Source of the DNA: Clostridium sp. DL-VIII
GTDB taxonomy: Bacteria > Bacillota > Clostridia > Clostridiales > Clostridiaceae
Assembly (NCBI RefSeq): GCF_000230835.1
Contig: NZ_CM001240.1
Span: 3,483,779-3,547,778, forward strand
Direction: 5' to 3'
DNA length: 64,000 nt
The stretch's first letter is position 1. Each line of letters begins with the position of its first letter. Both the position numbers and the translations under genes were made by a program. This document shows, piece by piece, positions 36,951 through 57,248 of the stretch. Under the pieces are notes generated by a model. The model did not search any database, was not told where the DNA came from, and saw only the letters and a program-made list of their open reading frames with translations.

Positions 36951-37324
36951 TTATTTTTTCATGCACATAGCATCTTGAACATGGTCTAAACACTCTCCAA
37001 ATCTTTGGAAGTGAACGACTTCTCTCTCTCTTAGAAAAGTTAATATTTCTTTAATTTGAGGTTCATCAGTTAGGTGTATTAAATTTTCATAAGTAGCTCT
37101 AGCTTTTTGTTCGGCAGCTAAATCTTCATGCAAATCTGCAATAGCATCGCCTTTTGCTTGTATATACGTTGCTGTCCATGGATTACCAGTTGCATCGGTA
37201 TAAAATAGCGCCTTTCTATGATCAGCATAATGTCCAGCAAGTCCAGCTTTTTTTATTTCTTCTATAGTTGCATTTTCCATAAGTTGATATACCATAGTGG
37301 CAATAATCTCAACATGAGCCATTT
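36951..37324 (-). CDS. cotJC: Spore coat protein CotJC, 3' part (interrupted gene)
   Basis: This piece encodes the C-terminal two thirds of CotJC, a manganese-catalase-like ferritin-fold coat protein: EEMAHVEIIATMVYQLMENA, AGLAGHYADHRKALFY, YIQAKGDAIADLHEDLAAEQ, REREVVHFQRFGECL. The metal-binding His and Glu residues (EMAHVE, EDLAAEQ, REVVHFQ) are all here. The 5' third lies on the same strand at 44408-44600. The two parts are separated by a 7083-bp element and meet at the core CTTCTG. Joining them gives TDIGTE-EMAHVE in frame and 188 codons in total, the normal family length. Confidence 0.92.
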
Positions 37325-38973
37325 CTTCTGCTACTATTGCTTAAAGGTAAAAGAACTTGTCGTGGACGTTCTTTACTTGAACCAATTAATATAATATCTA
37401 AAGTTCTTGTTTTACTATCCCAAACAACATATTTAACAAGACTCTTGATTAATCTTTTTTTATCCTCAAATTCTTCAACAAAATCATAGAACTTTTTAAA
37501 ATTATCTAAAATACTCAAAATTTCATCTAAAGATTCATCAGTATTTTCAATTTGTCTATTGGCTGATGATAAGTGATAAATTAATGAATTAAGTTCTTTA
37601 TTTCTGTCTGTAAGCTTTTTTAGTTCTATTTTAAATGGTTCAAGTAATTCTGGATCATTATCAAGATAAATCATTTTTGATACTAAATTATTAATACATT
37701 TCTTATTGCCTTCAATTTCTTTTGTAAAGTAAGTAAGCTCAGATTGATCATTAATTTGGATTATATTTTTTTTCTTGAGTTCCTCATAATTTTTTATTAT
37801 ATCTTCATGAGTTAATGATTTTAAGGTGGTCACCACGTAATCTTCAGCATCATAGGCATTCAGTGAATCATTACTGCAATTATTAGCGTTAGAATTCCGT
37901 AAATTACATGAATAATACCTATATGTATATTTGCCATTTAAATTTTGCCTAGGAGCCATAGCTGAGTTACATTCTTTACATATAACTAATCCTGATAATA
38001 AAGCTTGTTGACTTGTTCCTTTCCTATTGGATGTATTAGATTCTTTTATTTCATCAGCAATCATTTGGCATTTAAGCCACGTATCACTAGAAATTATTCC
38101 TGGATGTTCGCCAACAGAGATAATCCACTTTTTAATTGGAGCAAAGCCTCCTTTTTCAGTTCGTCTATTATAAGCCATAACGCCATTAATACCATTTATG
38201 TTTTCATATCCAAATACTTCGGCACCACACATTTTAAAATAATTTAATATTTTTTTATCTGCAATTGAATAAGTAGGATTATTAATAGTCTGCTTAACTA
38301 GATTTCTTGAAAAAAGAGAGCCTTTTCTGCTAAGTATCCCTTTGCTTTCTAATAATCTACTTACTTTTTGATAACTTTTGTATTTCATGAATAATTCAAA
38401 AACAAGTTTGGGAATATGACTTTCAGCAGGATTAACTTCAAGAATATGTTTTTTTCTATTTCTACCATTTAAGTTGTTATTAAGGATTTCAATAGATTTA
38501 TAACCAAGTGGAGGAGGACCACCAAGCCATCTTCCAGTCTTTGATAATTCTCGTAAGTTATCTTGTATGCGTTCAGCAATTGTTTCCCTTTCAAGCTGAG
38601 CGAAAGTAGCAGAAATGTTCAACATAGCTCTACCCATAGCAGAAGAGGTGTCAAATTGCTCCCTAATTGATATAAATGCTATATCATATTCATTTAATAC
38701 TTCTATAGTGCTTGCAAAATCACCAACATTTCTAGATATCCTATCAAGTCGATAGCATATAAGATGAGTGAATTCTTTAGACTTTATATCTTTCATAAGT
38801 TTCTGAAATTTAGGCCTGTTCGTATTACCACCAGAAAAACCTTCATCTTCATAAATTTCATATTCATCTATGCCAATACTTTTAGCATATTGTATACACA
38901 TATTAATTTGATTATCTATAGATTCACCCTTTTCAGTGAACTTACTTTTACGAGAATATATTGCTGCTTTCAA
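37309..38973 (-). CDS. Large serine recombinase of the cotJC element
   Basis: The 554-residue protein has a resolvase catalytic domain: YSRKSKFTEKGESIDNQ with nucleophile Ser10, then YEDEGFSGGNTNRP, ICYRLDRISRN and ATFAQLERETIAERI. It has the Recombinase domain start GPPPLGYK near 158, a zinc ribbon (CKECNSAM near 333, later YYSCNLRN and NCSND) and a coiled-coil region near 430-480. It catalyses site-specific integration and excision. The start is a TTG behind AAAGGA. The last seven codons overlap the att core and cotJC sequence; on the excised circle they would be replaced by a tail SNNDVKVETLF from the other junction, so the enzyme stays intact. Confidence 0.95.
   Translation of the reverse strand: MKAAIYSRKSKFTEKGESIDNQINMCIQYAKSIGIDEYEIYEDEGFSGGNTNRPKFQKLMKDIKSKEFTHLICYRLDRISRNVGDFASTIEVLNEYDIAFISIREQFDTSSAMGRAMLNISATFAQLERETIAERIQDNLRELSKTGRWLGGPPPLGYKSIEILNNNLNGRNRKKHILEVNPAESHIPKLVFELFMKYKSYQKVSRLLESKGILSRKGSLFSRNLVKQTINNPTYSIADKKILNYFKMCGAEVFGYENINGINGVMAYNRRTEKGGFAPIKKWIISVGEHPGIISSDTWLKCQMIADEIKESNTSNRKGTSQQALLSGLVICKECNSAMAPRQNLNGKYTYRYYSCNLRNSNANNCSNDSLNAYDAEDYVVTTLKSLTHEDIIKNYEELKKKNIIQINDQSELTYFTKEIEGNKKCINNLVSKMIYLDNDPELLEPFKIELKKLTDRNKELNSLIYHLSSANRQIENTDESLDEILSILDNFKKFYDFVEEFEDKKRLIKSLVKYVVWDSKTRTLDIILIGSSKERPRQVLLPLSNSSRRNGSC
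37325..37330 (+). other. Recombination core at the recombinase-side junction
   Basis: CTTCTG (CAGAAG on the coding strand of cotJC) is identical to 44408-44413. Everything to its left continues cotJC and everything to its right belongs to the element. The true crossover lies somewhere within these six bases. Confidence 0.85.
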
Positions 38974-39290
38974 TCTGAATCAATCCTTTCTAGAGCTTAT
39001 AGTAATTAAATTTAAATACTTATTTATAGTTATCTTATTAGGATGGGAGGGGATAAATGACCTAATATAGATATTTATAAAGGTGTAATTTTTTAGAATA
39101 CAATTATAAGTTCTAGAAAATATTTTTGTTATTATATGCTAATGCATACTTAAGGAAATTTAAAGATGGATCGTTGAACTATTTAAGAATAAAATATTAA
39201 TTTAATATGTATGTTATAGTAATTACAATATTTTACTGAAAATAAATAGAGATTGTATATGGCACTGTTTTTTGAAAGGAGTAAAGATAA
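38974..39290. other. Divergent control region inside the element
   Basis: This 317-base AT-rich gap lies between the recombinase gene (-) and the FtsH-ectodomain-like gene (+). A mother-cell promoter for the recombinase would be expected here; I could not identify convincing sigma-E or sigma-K boxes by eye. A strong ribosome-like site GGGAGGGG at 39045 is followed by ATG ACC TAA and therefore by no gene. Confidence 0.35.
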
Positions 39291-39746
39291 ATGCATAAAA
39301 ATAAACGCAAGGTTATGAAAATGGTTGTTATATTTCTTACAATATTAGTAGTCTTTCTAATTGGATTTAACTATTTAAGAAAACCAAATACAACTAAAGA
39401 GATTAGCTACAATCAGTTCATGAGTCTACTAGATGAGAATCAAGTTTCAAAAGTTGTTATAATGGATGAGGAAATAAAAATAACACCAAGAGATAATTCA
39501 GAATACAAAGCTAAAACACTATATACACTTAATATAGATGATGGAAACTTGATAGCTAAGCTTCAAAAATTAAAGGTAAATTACGATATCATAACACAAG
39601 TAAGATCCACAATTGTAAGCAAATTAATTGCATTAGTTATTATTTTGTTGTTTGTATATTTTATTTTGAGAAATAAATCATTAAAAAGTGATAAGAAAAG
39701 ACTGTTAATTAAAATAAGAAATTTAGAAGATAAGGATAATATTTAA
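39291..39746 (+). CDS. Membrane protein resembling the FtsH extracytoplasmic domain only
   Basis: The 151-residue protein has a hydrophobic N-terminal segment (KMVVIFLTILVVFLIGFNYL), then ISYNQFMSLLDENQVSKVVI, DEEIKITPRD and YTLNIDDGNLIAKLQKLKVN, which match the FtsH periplasmic/extracytoplasmic domain. A second membrane segment (SKLIALVIILLFVYFIL) follows, then a short basic tail. The AAA+ ATPase and zinc protease of FtsH are absent. It could be a truncated relic or a decoy subunit that alters FtsH activity; the latter is speculation. GAAAGGAG precedes the ATG. Confidence 0.72.
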   Translation: MHKNKRKVMKMVVIFLTILVVFLIGFNYLRKPNTTKEISYNQFMSLLDENQVSKVVIMDEEIKITPRDNSEYKAKTLYTLNIDDGNLIAKLQKLKVNYDIITQVRSTIVSKLIALVIILLFVYFILRNKSLKSDKKRLLIKIRNLEDKDNI

Positions 39747-40031
39747 GTTAATTTCTACCTACTTCAAAGCACTGCAAGTCAAAATAGTAAACTATTATAA
39801 ATAATATAGGTGAAAATAAAAAAATAAGATAATTTATCGAAAAGTCATGTATATACTTACTAATTTTAAATATTAATGCTATTTGACTTCTTGGAGCATT
39901 TGTAGAAATGCAGATGCTCCTTAATATTAATAAAATATTATATTAAATAGTTAAATGTAAATGATTAACAATTCGATTTTATTATGATATAGTAGATTTA
40001 ATGAGTAATAAATTATACGAGGAGAGTTATA

Positions 40032-40658
40032 ATGATTACAGCTGATCAATTAATGATTTTAAAAGAGAATGATATACAGAATATATCTAAAGTTATTAAC
40101 AAAAATGACATATCACAATTTGTTGAATGGCTATCTGAAAAAAATGATAAAGTAAGATATAATTCATTGTTACTGCTAGAGAATTACTCAGCATATTTTA
40201 AGGACGTATACTTCTTTTGGGATGTATTTATAGAAAAACTTAGGAACAAAAATTCATATCAAAGAATTATCGGATTAAAGCTTATTGCAGATAATGTAAA
40301 GTGGGATGAAGATAATAAGTTTGAAAAAATATTTGATGAATATTTTAATTTTCTAAATGATGATAAATTAATAATAATACGGCAAGGATTACAATCAATA
40401 CAAAATATAATTCCATATAAGGAGCATTTAAATAATAGAATCGCAAATAAGATTATGTCTTTAAACATTTGGAATCTTAGAGAAACAATGAGAAAACCTA
40501 TATTGATGGACATATTGAATGCTCTAATATTGATTAAAAAGAATCAAGCAAATGATGAGATAGACAACTATATTATTAATGCTGTTTCAGGTGGTGTTTT
40601 GGACAAAAAGACTAAAAAACAAATTGCATCAGATTTACAATTACCGCTCATATTCTGA
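40032..40658 (+). CDS. HEAT/ARM-like helical repeat protein, unknown function
   Basis: The 208-residue all-helical protein has repeats in the style of HEAT proteins: FVEWLSEKNDKVRYNSLLLL, DVFIEKLRNKNSYQRIIGLKL, DEYFNFLNDDKLIIIRQGLQ and DILNALILIKKNQ. It has no signal peptide or membrane segment and probably mediates protein contacts. GAGGAGAG precedes the ATG. A terminator follows at 40678. The role in the element is unknown. Confidence 0.6.
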   Translation: MITADQLMILKENDIQNISKVINKNDISQFVEWLSEKNDKVRYNSLLLLENYSAYFKDVYFFWDVFIEKLRNKNSYQRIIGLKLIADNVKWDEDNKFEKIFDEYFNFLNDDKLIIIRQGLQSIQNIIPYKEHLNNRIANKIMSLNIWNLRETMRKPILMDILNALILIKKNQANDEIDNYIINAVSGGVLDKKTKKQIASDLQLPLIF

Positions 40659-40677
40659 AGATATAATGAGTTTTATA

Positions 40678-40716
40678 ATACCTCAATATTCAAAATTGAA
40701 TTTGAGGTATTTTTTA
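40678..40716 (+). terminator. Terminator after the HEAT-like gene
   Basis: ATACCTCAA / TTGAGGTAT stem with an inner TTCAA/TTGAA pairing and TTTTTT after it. Confidence 0.8.
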
Positions 40717-40766
40717 GGCTTACAGCCGCAGAGCAAGCCACCCGTTTGACAGGTGGTCCTGACTTA
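40716..40766. repeat. GC-rich hairpin island, possible transposon-end remnant
   Basis: AGGCTTACAGCCGCAGAGCA followed by CCACC-(9 bases)-GGTGG stands out as GC-rich in a very AT-rich background. Short subterminal hairpins of this kind occur at IS200/IS605-type ends, but no tnpA or tnpB remains, so the origin is uncertain. Confidence 0.3.
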
Positions 40767-40878
40767 ATAGAATAATAGTTAAAAATACTATAAGCAAAAG
40801 CAAATTTGTAAAAAGAATTGTTAGGAACTATTTTTTTATATTTGCATATTATAAAAGCAAATATAATGGAGGAATAAG

Positions 40879-41055
40879 ATGAAATCTAAGCAAGCTATAA
40901 CAGTGAGAGTTCATTACCCAGAAACAGTAGAAGGAATAGAGCTACTAAAGAAGTCTCAAGCAGAAGCTATGATTGATATTTTAGAAAAACAGCTAGGAGA
41001 AAAAAAAGTAGACGAATTATTTGAATATATGAAAAAGAAAATTAAAAAAACTTAG
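40879..41055 (+). CDS. 58-residue helical protein
   Basis: The protein reads MKSKQAITVRVHYPETVEG at the start, a short beta strand, then amphipathic helices (LLKKSQAEAMIDILEKQLG, VDELFEYMKKKIKKT). An excellent ribosome site GGAGGA precedes the ATG at 40879. A small basic strand-helix protein inside an element run by a serine recombinase is a candidate recombination directionality factor or DNA-binding regulator, but sequence alone does not show this. Confidence 0.6.
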   Translation: MKSKQAITVRVHYPETVEGIELLKKSQAEAMIDILEKQLGEKKVDELFEYMKKKIKKT

Positions 41056-41216
41056 TAAAAAAGCTGATTAGACTCATGAATTTAAACAATATTAAATATT
41101 AAGTATATTATATTAAATTGTATTATGGAACTTATCTTTTATTATAAATTTTCTTAAATTCGACTTTTTAGGACGGAAAATGAAATTTTTGAATGTATAT
41201 TATATTGAAAGGATAA

Positions 41217-41257
41217 ATTCCAATAACAGTACCCCTTATTATGTCATTGGAATTACT
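41217..41257. other. Small inverted repeat
   Basis: ATTCCAATAACAG with TGTCATTGGAAT around a loop of about 15 bases. It may be a weak terminator for the 58-residue gene. The rest of 41056-41725 apart from the repeat below holds no gene I can support. Confidence 0.35.
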
Positions 41258-41280
41258 CCTATTATATACCTATATTTATT

Positions 41281-41387
41281 AAATGAGGCTGTCGCACAAT
41301 GAATAAAAACCACAATATGTTGTATTAGATTTTTAAATTTCAAAACAACATATTGCGGCTGCATTTCTTAATGCGACAGCCCCATTT
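41281..41387. repeat. MITE-like palindromic repeat
   Basis: A 107-base sequence with terminal inverted repeats AAATGAGGCTGTCGCA and TGCGACAGCCCCATTT and a second inner match ACAATATGTTGT / ACAACATATTG. It codes for nothing. GGCTGTCGCA-type ends resemble those of transposase-bearing insertion sequences, so a miniature non-autonomous derivative is likely. No clear target duplication was identified. Confidence 0.5.
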
Positions 41388-41725
41388 GTTATTATTGTAG
41401 TAAAATATATAGTACTTCATATGGTTAATTTAAATATATGCTTGATAGGCATGTGAAATGATTTATATAAATAAACATATATACATCTTGAAAGCACAAA
41501 ATAGTGATTATAATTATATATTGTGGTATAGAATAAAAACTTTATATAAACTCATTGATAGAACTATTCTGAATTTTGTATAAGAAAAATTTTACAGATA
41601 TTAATATTACAATGGAAACATATATCGTATTAAAAATTATACTAAGATATATGTATATATAAAATTACGAATTATTCAAATGATTATCTTATATTAAATT
41701 TAGAAGTACAAAGGAGTTGTATTGA

Positions 41726-42085
41726 ATGAGGAAATATTTTAATTCTACTAGATGTACCAAAGATTCATGTGAATTATGTAGAACAATTAATGCAGATCCA
41801 ATAGATATGGAAAGACATGGTGCGAAATTAGTTACAGCAAAAGTAAAAATAAATAATGTATGCCTTGGAAAAAAAGTTGCTGTTGCATGTGTTGTATATG
41901 ATGAAAATAATAAAATACTTGCATTTAAAGGGTTTATTACAACGGTTTCTAGAGATGCTAGTAGTACAAAGTCATGTGGAACTATTGAACGTGATATAGT
42001 ATTTGTGATTCCAGAAAATTATAGTTGTGATCTTGATAAATTAAATGTCCGCACCAAAGCAAACTATATATATCCATGTGAATAA
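41726..42085 (+). CDS. Cys-rich protein, possibly spore-related
   Basis: The 119-residue protein has cysteines at both ends (TRCTKDSCELCRTI near 9-22, SCGTIERD, NYSCDLD, YPCE at the end) around a beta-rich core KVKINNVCLGKKVAVACVVY, DENNKILAFKGF. It lacks a signal peptide. The core phrase recalls a domain in clostridial surface or exosporium proteins, an impression I cannot verify here. Disulfide crosslinking in a spore layer would fit an element that excises during sporulation. AAAGGAG precedes the ATG, and a strong terminator follows. Confidence 0.55.
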   Translation: MRKYFNSTRCTKDSCELCRTINADPIDMERHGAKLVTAKVKINNVCLGKKVAVACVVYDENNKILAFKGFITTVSRDASSTKSCGTIERDIVFVIPENYSCDLDKLNVRTKANYIYPCE

Positions 42086-42099
42086 GGATAGGTAACAAT

Positions 42100-42152
42100 A
42101 AAACACTTGTAAGATAGAATTTTATTCATCCATCTTACAAGTGTTTTATTGT
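42100..42152 (+). terminator. Terminator after the Cys-rich gene
   Basis: AAAACACTTGTAAGAT pairs perfectly with ATCTTACAAGTGTTTT around a 15-base loop. A- and T-tracts on both sides. Confidence 0.85.
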
Positions 42153-42324
42153 TAATTTAATATTCTATTTACCTAATTAATATTATATTTTTGGTTAAAT
42201 AAACAAACTTCTATATTATGTTATAATTTATACATTGATATGATAATATAAAAATATGATATTAGTTTAAATTTGAGTAAATGGGAATATAAAAAATACA
42301 ATTAATAGAAGGAAGGATACAATA

Positions 42325-43476
42325 GTGGAATTAGAAAAAAAAATTAGAAACAAAATTGCTATTATTATAGTATTAGCGTTTGTACTTTATATAGTATTTA
42401 ATTATTGGAGCAATATTACAGGCATATTAACAGAAATATATGATTTGGTTTTTCCATTTATTTTAGGAGGATGTATTGCATTTATTCTAAATATTCCAGT
42501 TACATTTTTTTCTCAAAAGCTATTACATTTACCTAATAATAGTATAGGAAAGATAATTAAGAAACATATCACAGCTATAAGTATAATAATTTCATGCATC
42601 ATTATAATAGTAATTTTTACATTAATTTCAGCAATAATTATTCCCAATATTATTGAAACCGCTAAAATATTGCCAATTGCTTTTGATGGATCAGTAACAA
42701 TGTTCCAAAAATGGTTGGATGGCAATAGCTGGCTATCTAATAATTTTATGGATTTAATTAATAATGCAGGAATTGATTGGAACAACATTTTAAATAATGT
42801 GAAGTCAACTATTTTTAATGGCATGAGTTCAGCATTAATATCAACAATAGAAGCAGCAACTGCTTTTGCAAGTACTACTTTAGAACTTATATTGGGATTT
42901 ATATTTGCTATATATTTATTAGCAGAAAAGAATAAGTTGGGAAGCCAATTTAAGAAAGCATTGTATGCTTTTATGAAAAAAGAAAAAGTAGATTCTATTT
43001 TGTCTGTATTAAAATTTACAAGTTTGACATTTTCAAATTTTTTTATAGGCCAATGTACTGTATCTGCAATTTTAGGAATAATGTTTTTGATTGCAACTAT
43101 GGTACTAAGAGTACCATATGCTTTAGTAATTAGTATCTTAATTGCTATTTTATCTATTATCCCTGTATTAGGTTCAGCAATTGGATGTATCTTAAGTGTA
43201 TTATTAATTGTAATGGTTAATCCCGTGAAGGCAGTAATTTTTTTACTTGTTTTTTTAGTAATCAAACAAATAGAGGATAATTTAATTTATCCCAAAATCG
43301 TAGGAAGCTCAGTAGGGTTACCAGCTATTTGGGTATTAGTAGCAATTACTTTAGGAGGCAAATTATTAGGTGTAGCTGGCATGATTATATTTATTCCTAT
43401 TTCCTCAGTTGCTTATGTCTTGTTTCGTAAAGAAGTATATATAAGATTAAAAAGAAAAGGTATAGAAATGGAGTAA
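42325..43476 (+). CDS. AI-2E-family transporter (PerM/YtvI-like membrane protein)
   Basis: The 383-residue protein has about seven to eight hydrophobic segments and the family pattern FPFILGGCIAFILNIPVTFF near the N-terminus, LGFIFAIYLLAEK in the middle, then IPVLGSAIGCILSVLLIV and VGLPAIWVLVAITLGG. Family members are assigned to AI-2 export, Na+/H+ exchange or, for YtvI, sporulation; the substrate here is unknown. The start is GTG behind GAAGGAAGG. It is the largest cargo gene of the cotJC element. Confidence 0.85.
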   Translation: MELEKKIRNKIAIIIVLAFVLYIVFNYWSNITGILTEIYDLVFPFILGGCIAFILNIPVTFFSQKLLHLPNNSIGKIIKKHITAISIIISCIIIIVIFTLISAIIIPNIIETAKILPIAFDGSVTMFQKWLDGNSWLSNNFMDLINNAGIDWNNILNNVKSTIFNGMSSALISTIEAATAFASTTLELILGFIFAIYLLAEKNKLGSQFKKALYAFMKKEKVDSILSVLKFTSLTFSNFFIGQCTVSAILGIMFLIATMVLRVPYALVISILIAILSIIPVLGSAIGCILSVLLIVMVNPVKAVIFLLVFLVIKQIEDNLIYPKIVGSSVGLPAIWVLVAITLGGKLLGVAGMIIFIPISSVAYVLFRKEVYIRLKRKGIEME

Positions 43477-43599
43477 ATTAATTGCTGCCTCTTACTTTAT
43501 TGAGAATAGTTTATTGGTATAAAAAGAAAAGTTATAGCAGTAAAAGTGAAAGAATTAAATATGTATCTTTTAAGCATGATAATAGGTGTTTTAAGAAAA

Positions 43600-43706
43600 A
43601 TGTAATTATTTATTAAATTATTATGCTATTATTAGGTTGTAATAAGTATAATTCCCTAGAAGATAAAAAAGACACAAATCTAGTACCAAAAAATAATGAT
43701 AGTTAA
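43600..43706 (+). pseudogene. Possible remnant of a small lipoprotein gene
   Basis: From 43623 the frame reads MLLLGCNKYNSLEDKKDTNL and stops after 27 codons; LLLGC looks like a lipobox. From 43600 another frame begins with ATG followed at once by TAA, then LFIKLL. Joined across a frameshift they would make a normal lipoprotein signal peptide. The terminator following it supports a former gene. No ribosome site is seen. Confidence 0.3.
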
Positions 43707-43740
43707 CAGTAGAAATATTGTTTGCTATCATTATTTTTCT
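43692..43740 (+). terminator. Terminator after the lipoprotein remnant
   Basis: AATAATGATAG / CTATCATTATT perfect 11-bp stem followed by TTTCT. The remainder of 43477-43900 shows no other gene. Confidence 0.7.
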
Positions 43741-43900
43741 AAATGATATAAGTATGCTTTAATTTTTATTTAAATAATTTTTCACTTTTGAATATATTTA
43801 TAATAAGAAATCCTAACGATAATTTTTAATGAATTTTTTATAACATAATTAATTATAAATATTTATTTTAAATTAATTAAATCAGGAGGGAGAATTTTTA

Positions 43901-44188
43901 ATGTTAAAAAGTATAAAGAAATCAGTCAGCCAATCTGGTAGGAATGCAAAGGAAGCAGCTAAAGCTGCTAGAAAGAGATCGATAGAAGAAGCTAAGGCTA
44001 ATATAGAAATGGGGGCAAAAGCAACTAACAGATCGAAGGAAGAAGCAAGAAGAATGGCAGAAGAAGCACAGAAAAATGCTCAAGAGAAAGGAAAAAGACA
44101 AGCAAAAGCAATGACAGAAGCATCACGAATTGCAGAAAAAAAAGCAAAGGAAATAGCTAAAAAAGTAGAAGATAGAAAAAAAGTATGA
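43901..44188 (+). CDS. Highly basic Lys/Ala-rich helical protein
   Basis: The 95-residue protein is almost entirely Ala, Lys, Glu and Arg in an extended amphipathic helix: KEAAKAARKRSIEEAKANIE, EEARRMAEEAQKNAQEKG, AEKKAKEIAKKVEDRKK. Composition resembles histone-H1-like or LEA-like proteins and suggests nucleic-acid binding or a protective role in spores. It has no cysteine or membrane segment. CAGGAGGGAG precedes the ATG. It is the last gene before the cotJC 5' junction and is transcribed towards it. Confidence 0.6.
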   Translation: MLKSIKKSVSQSGRNAKEAAKAARKRSIEEAKANIEMGAKATNRSKEEARRMAEEAQKNAQEKGKRQAKAMTEASRIAEKKAKEIAKKVEDRKKV

Positions 44189-44290
44189 AAGACTGTATGA
44201 AAAGTTTTTCGTAAGCATCTTTTCATGATAATAGTCTAATAGAGTATGCGAAAGTTTTTCTGTAAATAGCTTTCTATAAATAAGAATTTA

Positions 44291-44335
44291 GTAGGATATA
44301 TGGCTCAATTACAAGCCATATATCTTATTTTTAGT
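44291..44335 (+). terminator. Terminator near the right end of the element
   Basis: GATATATGGCT / AGCCATATATC perfect stem with an eight-base loop, then TTATTTTTAG. It prevents plus-strand transcription from running antisense into cotJC. Confidence 0.8.
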
Positions 44336-44407
44336 TGTATGTTAATAAATCATGTATGTTTTTTATGAATATTTTAGAAAAGTGTTTCTACTTTTACGTC
44401 ATTGTTG

Positions 44408-44413
44408 CTTCTG
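44408..44413 (+). other. Recombination core at the cotJC 5' junction
   Basis: CTTCTG, identical to 37325-37330. Left of it the cotJC frame runs out after four foreign codons (last residues ATMT). Right of it is cotJC coding sequence. Confidence 0.85.
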
Positions 44414-44600
44414 TGCCTATATCAGTTAGTAATCCTTTTGATTTGCCTGTTGGCATTGTATAGCGTTGATCGAGATATCTTAAAGCAGCACTTAACTCTC
44501 CATCCGGACCACCATATTGTGTTATTAAATATTTGGCCATATTAAGATCTTTACATTTAAGATTTACAGGATATTCCAAGGTTTTTACATAGTACCACAT
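44408..44600 (-). CDS. cotJC: Spore coat protein CotJC, 5' part (interrupted gene)
   Basis: This piece encodes MWYYVKTLEYPVNLK, MAKYLITQYGGPDGELSAAL, RYLDQRYTMP and GLLTDIGTE, the N-terminal third of CotJC. In the integrated state the frame continues into the element for ATMT and stops at 44394, giving a 68-residue product without metal ligands. The start ATG at 44600 is 11 bases behind GGAGG. The gene follows cotJB by 15 bases, so transcription of the cotJ operon is intact and only the coding sequence is interrupted. Confidence 0.92.
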
Positions 44601-44615
44601 AAACTCATATTCCTC

Positions 44616-44867
44616 CTATTTATAATTTTCCCATGGCCAAGGCTGATCAACCCATGCTTTTGGATTTTCTACAAAAGCTGAACCGAAATTTGTTAAAGGG
44701 CCACAATTTTTTTCATATTCATTAATTAAGCTAGTCAATTTACAAGATACTTTGGAATAATCTTCTCTAGCATTCTTATCTTCTGGAAAATTATCAAGGA
44801 ATAAATTTAGCTCTACGGCACAAAACTGATATATCATTATACTATTTAACATATCTCTCGGACTCAT
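44616..44867 (-). CDS. cotJB: Spore coat protein CotJB
   Basis: The 83-residue protein matches CotJB: an N-terminal helix LNSIMIYQFCAVELNLFLDN followed by PEDKNAREDYSKV and the characteristic C-terminal GPLTNFG and PWPWENYK. It is a small coat component that in Bacillus works with CotJA and CotJC. AGGTGAT-type ribosome site upstream. It is the middle gene of cotJABC, six bases after cotJA. Confidence 0.92.
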   Translation of the reverse strand: MSPRDMLNSIMIYQFCAVELNLFLDNFPEDKNAREDYSKVSCKLTSLINEYEKNCGPLTNFGSAFVENPKAWVDQPWPWENYK

Positions 44868-44873
44868 ATACTA

Positions 44874-45110
44874 TCACCTCTCATATTTAATTTTTTTATA
44901 TTCATAGTTGGGCATATAGCCTTTTTCACAGCCGTATTCACAGTCGTGATCATGGTGATGGTGATCGTGGTATGGTCTATATAGATCTTTAAATATTGTT
45001 CCTTTAGAAAATCCTTCTTTGCAAGAAAAGAGATTTTCATATTTTTGAGGTAATATATATGCACGAGCATATTCTTTTTGTTTACACATACAGTCATCAT
45101 GTCTGTACAT
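44874..45110 (-). CDS. cotJA: Spore coat associated protein CotJA
   Basis: The 78-residue protein contains the CotJA core ARAYILPQKYENLFSCKEGF, SKGTIFKDLYRPY, followed by a His/Asp-rich stretch (HDHHHHDHD near 48-56) that could bind metal and a Tyr/Lys-rich tail. AAGGAGTG precedes the ATG at 45110. An overlapping longer frame starting at 45121 has no coat-like sequence and is rejected. The gene opens the cotJ operon; a mother-cell sigma-E promoter is expected in 45111-45290. CATAAATT on the minus strand near 45155 is only a weak -10 candidate. Confidence 0.85.
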   Translation of the reverse strand: MYRHDDCMCKQKEYARAYILPQKYENLFSCKEGFSKGTIFKDLYRPYHDHHHHDHDCEYGCEKGYMPNYEYKKIKYER

Positions 45111-45410
45111 AAGGGGTTCACTCCTTCATTAGTGGCTTACTTACTTAATAATTAATTTATGCATGATGTGAAATTATTGTGATAAATAAAAAGGAGAATT
45201 TTGGATTTTTTTGCAGATGATTGTTATATAAAGTTATATAAGATAACTAGTTTAATTATATAGGACCTTATCCAAGTATTTTACTTAAAACTTGACAAAT
45301 AACATTTATAGATATAAGGTCAACACATGAGTAAGATTTTAGAATTTCCTGTTCAGAGATTATATACAATGGTATTAGAAAATAAATTATTATGAGAGTA
45401 GGAGAATATT

Positions 45411-56540: not shown

Positions 56541-57248
56541 ATGATGAATTTATATAATGTTTTAATTGTGGAAGACGAAAAGGAAATATGTGATGGTATT
56601 GAAATCTATTTGAAGAATCAAGGATATAATGTATTTAAGGCTGGTAATGGTGAAGAAGGACTTGAAATTATTAAGAAGGTAGATCTGCATTTGTCCATTG
56701 TAGACATTATGATGCCTAAAATGGATGGAATAACTATGGTCATGAAACTTCGTGAAAATTATGATTTTCCTGTAATAATGCTCACAGCTAAATCAGAAGA
56801 AATGGATAAAATAATGGGGCTCAATATTGGGGCTGATGATTATGTGACTAAGCCATTTAATCCAATGGAGCTATTAGCTAGGGTGAATTCGCAGCTTAGG
56901 AGGTATTCTAAGTACTTAAGTGTATTAAATAATTTCGAAGAAAAAAATAATAACTTCACAATTGGGGGATTAGAATTAAATACAGATACTAAAGAAGTAT
57001 TTTTGGATGGTGAGTTAGTGAAATTTACTCCTATTGAATTTAAAATATTGCATCTATTAATGAAAAATGCAGGAAAGGTTTTTTCAGCAGAGGAAATTTA
57101 TGAAAGAGTATGGAATGAAGCCGCTATTAATACAGATACCGTAATGGTTCACATCAGAAATATCAGAGAAAAGATAGAGATTGATTCCAAAAATCCTAAA
57201 TATTTAAAAGTAGTCTGGGGAATTGGATACAAAGTTGAAAAACAATAA
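56541..57248 (+). CDS. OmpR/PhoB-family response regulator
   Basis: The 235-residue protein has a receiver domain (acidic pair EDE near 11-13, phosphorylation site DIMMPKMDG with Asp near 55, LTAKSEE, and Lys in VTKPFNP) and a winged-helix DNA-binding domain from about 135 (LVKFTPIEFKILHLLMKNAG, VMVHIRNIREKIE, YLKVVWGIGYKVE). It acts with the downstream kinase. The ATG at 56541 is behind TAAGGATG. Confidence 0.93.
   Translation: MMNLYNVLIVEDEKEICDGIEIYLKNQGYNVFKAGNGEEGLEIIKKVDLHLSIVDIMMPKMDGITMVMKLRENYDFPVIMLTAKSEEMDKIMGLNIGADDYVTKPFNPMELLARVNSQLRRYSKYLSVLNNFEEKNNNFTIGGLELNTDTKEVFLDGELVKFTPIEFKILHLLMKNAGKVFSAEEIYERVWNEAAINTDTVMVHIRNIREKIEIDSKNPKYLKVVWGIGYKVEKQ

Follow-up and report, generated by a model that had tools for sequence, protein, structure and literature searches.

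The cotJC gene of Clostridium sp. DL-VIII is split by a stretch of 7083 bp that is quite probably a sporulation-gene-intervening element of the skin, gin and yin kind, excised in the mother cell under sigma-K. The interrupted gene lies in a segment of 64,000 nt from contig NZ_CM001240.1, referred to hereafter as the window, whose genome is labelled G000 in the comparisons. A preliminary description of this DNA had reported two parts of cotJC on one strand separated by 7083 bp, an arrangement that has been confirmed on the minus strand, where both parts match the Mn_catalase family of Pfam (PF05067). The N part matches profile positions 1-65 (E 8.6e-19) and the C part positions 62-196 (E 2.1e-36), the two covering adjoining stretches of the profile, and the spacing of 7083 bp is that of two GA cores, one at each junction. 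The frame of the 5' part continues into the element up to a stop at 44394. Counting nucleotides, with the letters themselves not joined, gives 191 nt (44600-44410) plus 376 nt (37326-36951), and bears out the 567 bases, 188 codons plus stop and absence of a frameshift proposed before. The two parts are:

44410..44600, minus strand: 5' part of cotJC, codons 1-63 plus two bases of codon 64
36951..37326, minus strand: 3' part of cotJC including the stop codon, from the sequence and the Mn_catalase match

No intact CotJC was found in the window's own genome, a single contig of 6.48 Mb, where the other match is a different Mn-catalase-like gene, 29% identical and with a frame of 260 aa. Alignment of an intact relative with 1jku and other solved Mn catalases places E35 in the N part and E65 and H68 in the C part. 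These three residues, which we take to be the di-Mn ligands, are thus distributed over both halves, so that neither of them should form the metal site alone. Uninterrupted alleles, which the preliminary description had proposed to look for in related strains, were found: in G004 (189 aa), G050, G014, G015, G024, G020 and G003, cotJC is continuous across the break codon, and G005, G058 and others are further genomes with an uninterrupted gene. Since these relatives continue through the codon, the break results from an insertion rather than marking a gene boundary.

Serine integrases generally cross over at a central dinucleotide, and comparison of the elements inserted at the same breakpoint points to GA as that dinucleotide here. 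The word CTTCTG that had been noted at each breakpoint is indeed present at both (CAGAAG on the minus strand), but the core common to the relatives narrows to GA, and the six-base word is therefore partly peculiar to the window genome. The consensus reads AC(A/T)GA|(A/T)... on the N side (seven elements) and GCAGA|(A/G)GA... on the C side (six elements, the C side of G035 falling at a contig end). Beside the core, the element ends are alike among elements sharing the breakpoint, and in the window they carry two arms in inverted orientation. A 12-base word matching the uninterrupted sites, CAGAAGAAATGG, has a second exact copy at window position 56794. The junction features are:

44410..44411, minus strand: probable crossover dinucleotide GA at the cotJC 5'-side junction (seven elements compared)
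37327..37328, minus strand: probable crossover dinucleotide GA at the cotJC 3'-side junction (six elements compared)
37347..37353, minus strand: arm CTTTTAC on the element side of the junction, at 18 nt from the core and with its mirror image at 44391-44397
44391..44397, minus strand: arm GTAAAAG, likewise on the element side, at 12 nt from the core and an inverted copy of the CTTTTAC arm

A large serine recombinase (LSR) had been described as abutting one junction, and its contact with the host gene proved to be closer than that: its frame crosses the GA core and meets a stop codon 18 nt beyond, within cotJC (37309-37326). Because the frame ends inside cotJC, the last residues of the LSR appear to be host-encoded while the element is integrated and must change upon excision. 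The frame also crosses the core in G032, G023 and G025, the last with a longer tail, and the LSR of G034 ends before the core. For the integrase SprA, a directionality switch at the extreme C-terminus has reportedly been proposed, and by analogy the crossing of the core may bear on directionality. In G035 (L096, G035:C209), the LSR faces the N part of cotJC, opposite to the other elements at this site, in a reading limited by contig ends. Besides the LSR, a 58-aa open reading frame (ORF) is the only ORF of the window element with relatives in other elements, antisense shadows of the LSR aside. This comparison covered ORFs of >=45 aa in six elements, with those of G032 and G023 covered in part and the G035 contig ending early. 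Both genes occur in all six comparable elements, and the 58-aa ORF is 79-81% identical in G023, G032 and G025 and 28-32% identical in G034 and G053. It is regarded here as a putative recombination directionality factor (RDF). Its predicted structure consists of two helices (pLDDT 86), and no significant sequence match was found in the PDB (best E 0.04). The two genes and the promoter motif of the smaller one are:

37309..38973, minus strand: LSR of 554 aa, with the Pfam domains Resolvase, Recombinase and Zn_ribbon_recom
40879..41055, plus strand: 58-aa ORF, candidate RDF from its conservation and LSR linkage
40827..40853, plus strand: sigma-K-type promoter AC-N16-CATA-N3-TA, preceding the 58-aa ORF by 52 nt, from the motif and a dyad, ATATTTGC-N11-GCAAATAT, over the -10

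The spacing rule used for sigma-K promoters is that of B. subtilis. Following it, AC-N16/17-CATA-N3-T(A/G) is found 45-53 nt upstream of the 58-aa ORF in all six elements, the same motif occurring in 94 of 11848 sliding 100-nt windows of those loci. The dyad ATATTTGC-N11-GCAAATAT spans the -10 in four close relatives including the window, where it is full-length. A profile of the 58-aa ORF, built from seven rows that all come from LSR loci, retrieved 16 places in 14 of 68 genomes, the seven rows being among those 16. Fifteen of the places lie at most 16 kb from an LSR, with the ORF upstream on the opposite strand, and outside the profile rows eight of nine relatives are linked to an LSR, in elements adjoining a cut yabG and other genes. 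CATA-N3-T appears 34-57 nt upstream of the matched stretch at 15 of the 16 places (background 30-60 nt upstream: 1477 of 21220 positions and 59 of 485 ORF starts). The exception is G021, which has neither this box nor an LSR within the 12 kb examined. In C. difficile, sigma-K promoters have AC at the -35 and a CATATAAT-like -10 (PMC3789822). The arrangement suggests that sigma-K drives the 58-aa ORF.

The same type of motif precedes the cotJ operon, in which the putative cotJA and cotJB, identified by their order in the operon, are uninterrupted:

45153..45180, minus strand: sigma-K-type promoter motif AC-N17-CATA-N3-TA in front of the cotJ operon, from a motif search
44874..45110, minus strand: cotJA, uninterrupted open reading frame
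44616..44867, minus strand: cotJB, uninterrupted open reading frame

Of 22 cotJ loci, 16 have a sigma-K-type motif at a distance of 510-678 nt upstream of cotJC, its position upstream of cotJA itself being checked in the window only. The six misses comprise four loci with less than 510 nt of sequence, G025, whose sole match is at 287, and G095, with none in 1000 nt. That cotJC acts as a sporulation gene is suggested by its family and by its C. difficile homologues (PMC3789822), and in the latter species cotCB, cotD and a protease resembling YabG depend on sigma-K (PMC3789822). Further points in favour are the intact sigK of the window genome and the yin element, which excises from yabG of C. 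botulinum and whose RDF candidate has a predicted sigma-K promoter (PMC10747680). The skin-type reading of the preliminary description thus finds support in the uninterrupted alleles, the breakpoint common to seven genomes, the open LSR, the RDF candidate, the promoters and the yin precedent. According to this reading, the LSR would have integrated the element at the conserved Mn-catalase motif of cotJC, and growing cells would carry the split gene. Once sigma-K is activated in the mother cell, the cotJ operon and the 58-aa RDF would be transcribed together, and the RDF would make the LSR excise the element across the GA cores, closing the gene in frame as its message is needed and allowing full-length CotJC to be made. 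The altered mother-cell chromosome would be lost afterwards and the spore would retain the element. This sigma-K-coupled logic of closure was proposed earlier for yin (PMC10747680).

The split of cotJC is no isolated accident. A match to the C part of CotJC at E<=1e-30 was obtained in 60 of the 68 genomes searched in the genus, and 14 of these 60 carry a split copy, interrupted in one of two regions of the gene. No intact copy was found in 12 of the genomes with a split one, the remaining two, G038 and G033, having an intact second copy. Seven genomes (G000, G025, G032, G023, G034, G053 and G035) are cut at the codon of the window and have related LSRs, and G012 is cut a few bases beyond it. 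G006, G048, G009, G038, G033 and G045 are cut around codon 108, the base not being identical in all of them. The N and C parts share a contig in G000, G025, G034, G053, G012, G006 and G038. They fall on different contigs in the other seven, as might be expected from an assembly artefact, an explanation rendered extremely improbable by the single 6.48-Mb contig of the window genome and by the same type of junction in independent assemblies, including those of Clostridium sp. LS and C2-6-12. In a wider search of 206 genomes of the family, in which counts outside the genus are lower bounds, at least two splits at the same GTEE motif occur in another genus, in G095 (parts 3.5 kb apart) and G101 (different contigs), and both adjoin a recombinase-like ORF recognised by eye rather than by a family search.

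The idea that every short cotJC match represents an insertion was rejected. G062 has an internal deletion, G030 a stop codon, the second copy of G026 two stops and G079 a deletion, and judging from their sequences these genes are pseudogene-like. The cotJC of G100 ends at contig ends and was left out of both classes. Decayed relatives such as G062, G030 and the G026 copy, together with the stop codons in the LSR of the G006 element, would be consistent with a dispensable cotJC inactivated by insertion and never restored. Such a fate is, however, very unlikely for the window gene, whose two parts and LSR are all open and whose lengths fit in frame. Moreover, the N-side break is identical in seven of seven elements and the C-side break in all six that are visible, and the RDF candidate is conserved.

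The preliminary description had suggested a search for homologues of the element in other spore genes, and related LSRs and 58-aa ORFs were encountered beside a cut yabG and further genes. LSRs next to relatives of the 58-aa ORF outside cotJC adjoin the N part of an NMT1-like lipoprotein gene (G006, G014, G009, G050 and G034), yabG (G050) and a piece of an FAD-oxidoreductase gene (G018, G019 and G026). In G050, N and C pieces of yabG lie 37.5 kb apart on one contig (L177; G050:C53:36878-75201), beside an LSR and a 58-aa ORF relative; the gene is whole in G000, G032 and G004. The motif AC-N16-CATA-N3-TA is found upstream of yabG, and AC-N17-CATA-N3-TA upstream of the lipoprotein gene in five aligned split loci. 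When one LSR place was taken from each of 30 of the 42 genomes with an LSR match (loci L008-L037), 23 could be assigned to a target (cotJC 8, lipoprotein gene 9, yabG 1, oxidoreductase 5) and 7 had none assigned. A short lipoprotein frame with an LSR within ~1 kb occurs in 15 of 55 genomes, the window genome included. There, outside the window, the NMT1/SsuA-like lipoprotein gene is split into two same-strand parts 2.9 kb apart (G000:C1:1671516-1675460; L200:1016-4960) with a 38% identical LSR between them, and this is the only genome in which the C part of that gene was located.

The lipoprotein gene is seemingly cut twice in G014 (L175, L210) and G009 (L176, L212), where the N piece and the middle piece each have their own LSR next to them, and no C piece turned up in the 23 kb examined for G014. 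The FAD-oxidoreductase gene of G018 (L180, L208; G018:C3:212643-217104) likewise has two apparent breaks, each by an LSR and one of them just after the GGGWSG motif. The balance tips slightly towards a broader proposal, a guild of sigma-K-timed DNA introns, in which LSR elements with a common RDF family, its gene preceded by a sigma-K-type promoter, would time and again enter genes that have promoters of this type themselves (cotJC, yabG and the NMT1-like lipoprotein gene), sometimes two per gene. Programmed DNA deletion would then assemble some of the late genes of the mother cell.

Regarding the history of these insertions, the synonymous divergence (dS) of the LSRs, estimated by a simple method and near saturation, is 0.46-0.79, against 1.05-1.99 for a long neighbouring host gene, which we take to be dinG, and it is lower in all six pairs of G000, G025, G032 and G023. 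The dS of the short N part of cotJC, 0.54-1.21, overlaps the LSR range. Rows were left out where the neighbour is not a long frame (G034, G005 and G015) or the frame is a wrong gene (G004, 22% identity). In addition, G032 is split and G050 intact, with cotJC 99% and the neighbour 95.4% identical. Because the LSRs are less diverged than their hosts and G032 and G050 differ in the element, the sequences indicate that elements are inserted horizontally and repeatedly, or leave repeatedly, and a single old, vertically inherited split was rejected on the same two grounds. As the split is not old, the dN/dS of the halves is unusable as proof of function, and the lack of decay in them could equally be explained by recent insertion. 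The horizontal spread of the LSRs would also suit a selfish integrative element whose excision is infrequent and not tied to any growth stage, leaving a population mosaic of split and whole cotJC, free of strict developmental control. The absence of a clear sporulation promoter for the LSR would fit such an element too, as would the behaviour of yin, whose closure, shown by PCR and sequencing, rises with sporulation, with joined and circular forms detectable at all time points (PMC10747680). This alternative is nevertheless considered unlikely, given the conserved sigma-K-type promoter on the sole other conserved gene, the 58-aa ORF, and the fact that members of this LSR/ORF family have also inserted into other genes preceded by sigma-K-type promoters.

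Several points weigh against developmental excision under sigma-K. Both the excision and its restriction to the mother cell are what we infer from sequence, and by analogy with yin, given its excision at all time points, a strict limitation to the mother cell may not hold. The sigma-K motif is not rare, with 4 occurrences in the window against 3.3 expected, and it was noticed before being tested; as four of the six promoters belong to closely related genomes, the independent cases number about three. The fuller AC-N15-18-CATA-N3-T is found at 11 of the 16 profile places, the AC box missing at the other five, and the linkage of the ORF to LSRs is partly circular, because the profile was made from seven of those 16 places. 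No solved fold matched the 58-aa ORF model at E<=0.001. The region upstream of the window LSR has no clear sporulation promoter, and the FAD-oxidoreductase target lacks a sigma-K motif in 2.7 kb upstream in G018, the one genome considered. The LSR beside the split cotJC of G006 (L068, G006:C1:3329098-3330735) contains two stop codons, with the gene parts 107 kb apart, and because of these stops that split is perhaps permanent. Finally, as LSR dS is below host-gene dS, purifying selection on the cotJC halves cannot be credited to the split state.

The remaining genes of the window element are:

39291..39746, plus strand: FtsH extracellular-domain protein, 151 aa, from a family match
40032..40658, plus strand: 208-aa protein without assigned family, from a family search
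41726..42085, plus strand: 119-aa protein without assigned family; related DNA occurs elsewhere in further genomes of the genus
42325..43476, plus strand: AI-2E family transporter, YtvI-like but below the cut-off of the YtvI family, from a family match
43901..44188, plus strand: 95-aa Lys/Ala-rich protein without assigned family, from a family search

The AI-2E and FtsH-ext genes, like that of the 119-aa protein, have DNA relatives elsewhere in the genus. Among the seven proteins of the window element, no PHROG or Pfam structural or packaging family of phages and no defence family was found. A search for close phage records yielded a single record, at 37.9%, and a scan of viral contigs returned two loci, L127 and L128, the former of which ends in cotJC. 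Elements measure 7.1 kb in the window, ~58 kb in G025, 39 kb in G034 and 41 kb in G053, and the gene content of the window element makes it look like a reduced or non-phage element that retained the LSR and the 58-aa gene.

Elements of this kind are already known (skin, SPbeta/spsM, vfbin, vrin, gin and yin); the cotJC target and the scale appear to be new. No printed report of cotJC as a split target was found in the literature searched, most subscription papers and all preprints being outside its scope. The closest likeness is to yin of C. botulinum V73, in which a late mother-cell gene is also split, with an LSR by one part and a small RDF candidate with a predicted sigma-K promoter (PMC10747680). 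Excision and circle of yin have been shown by PCR. Yin furthermore interrupts yabG, is a predicted prophage and was reported as unique, in contrast with the 7.1 kb found here, where no phage structural genes were detected (PMC10747680). The yin report states that public databases had yielded no further yabG insertion by November 2023 (PMC10747680), and the yabG of G050 would be one. The skin element in C. difficile sigK also has an LSR and, as proposed for the window element, a small, mother-cell-controlled RDF, CD1234; that RDF is under sigma-E and SpoIIID and the target is a sigma factor, whereas here sigK is intact and the target lies behind a sigma-K-type promoter (PMC5025042). Like gin in B. 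cereus gerE, the window element has no detected phage genes and splits a mother-cell gene, with serine recombinases in both, but gin measures 28.6 kb, has three recombinases and interrupts another target in Bacillus (PMC5595907). SPbeta in B. subtilis spsM resembles it in its site-specific recombinase (SprA), in the reduced remnants of relatives and, as predicted for the window element, in a second factor (SprB) and the reconstitution of the gene in the mother cell, and differs as an active phage with another target in Bacillus (PMC4191935). The attachment site of phi027 adjoins a CotJC homologue, cotG of C. difficile, although it is described as adjacent, with the gene downstream of attR, and not as an in-frame split (PMC11222575, PMC12122855).

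Developmental excision in spore formers is known from few genes and has usually been told as a series of single cases. A split cotJC in 14 of 60 genomes, a second gene cut beside an LSR in 15 of 55 and a recurrent small protein with a sigma-K-type promoter make it possible to test whether a developmental regulon serves mobile elements as a refuge that they follow, excision being cheap where the genome of the cell is thrown away. A set of natural candidate pairs of LSR and RDF, their sites mapped, is now on offer, and in Clostridium an annotation of a spore-coat gene as absent or broken may conceal a gene that is whole in the mother cell.

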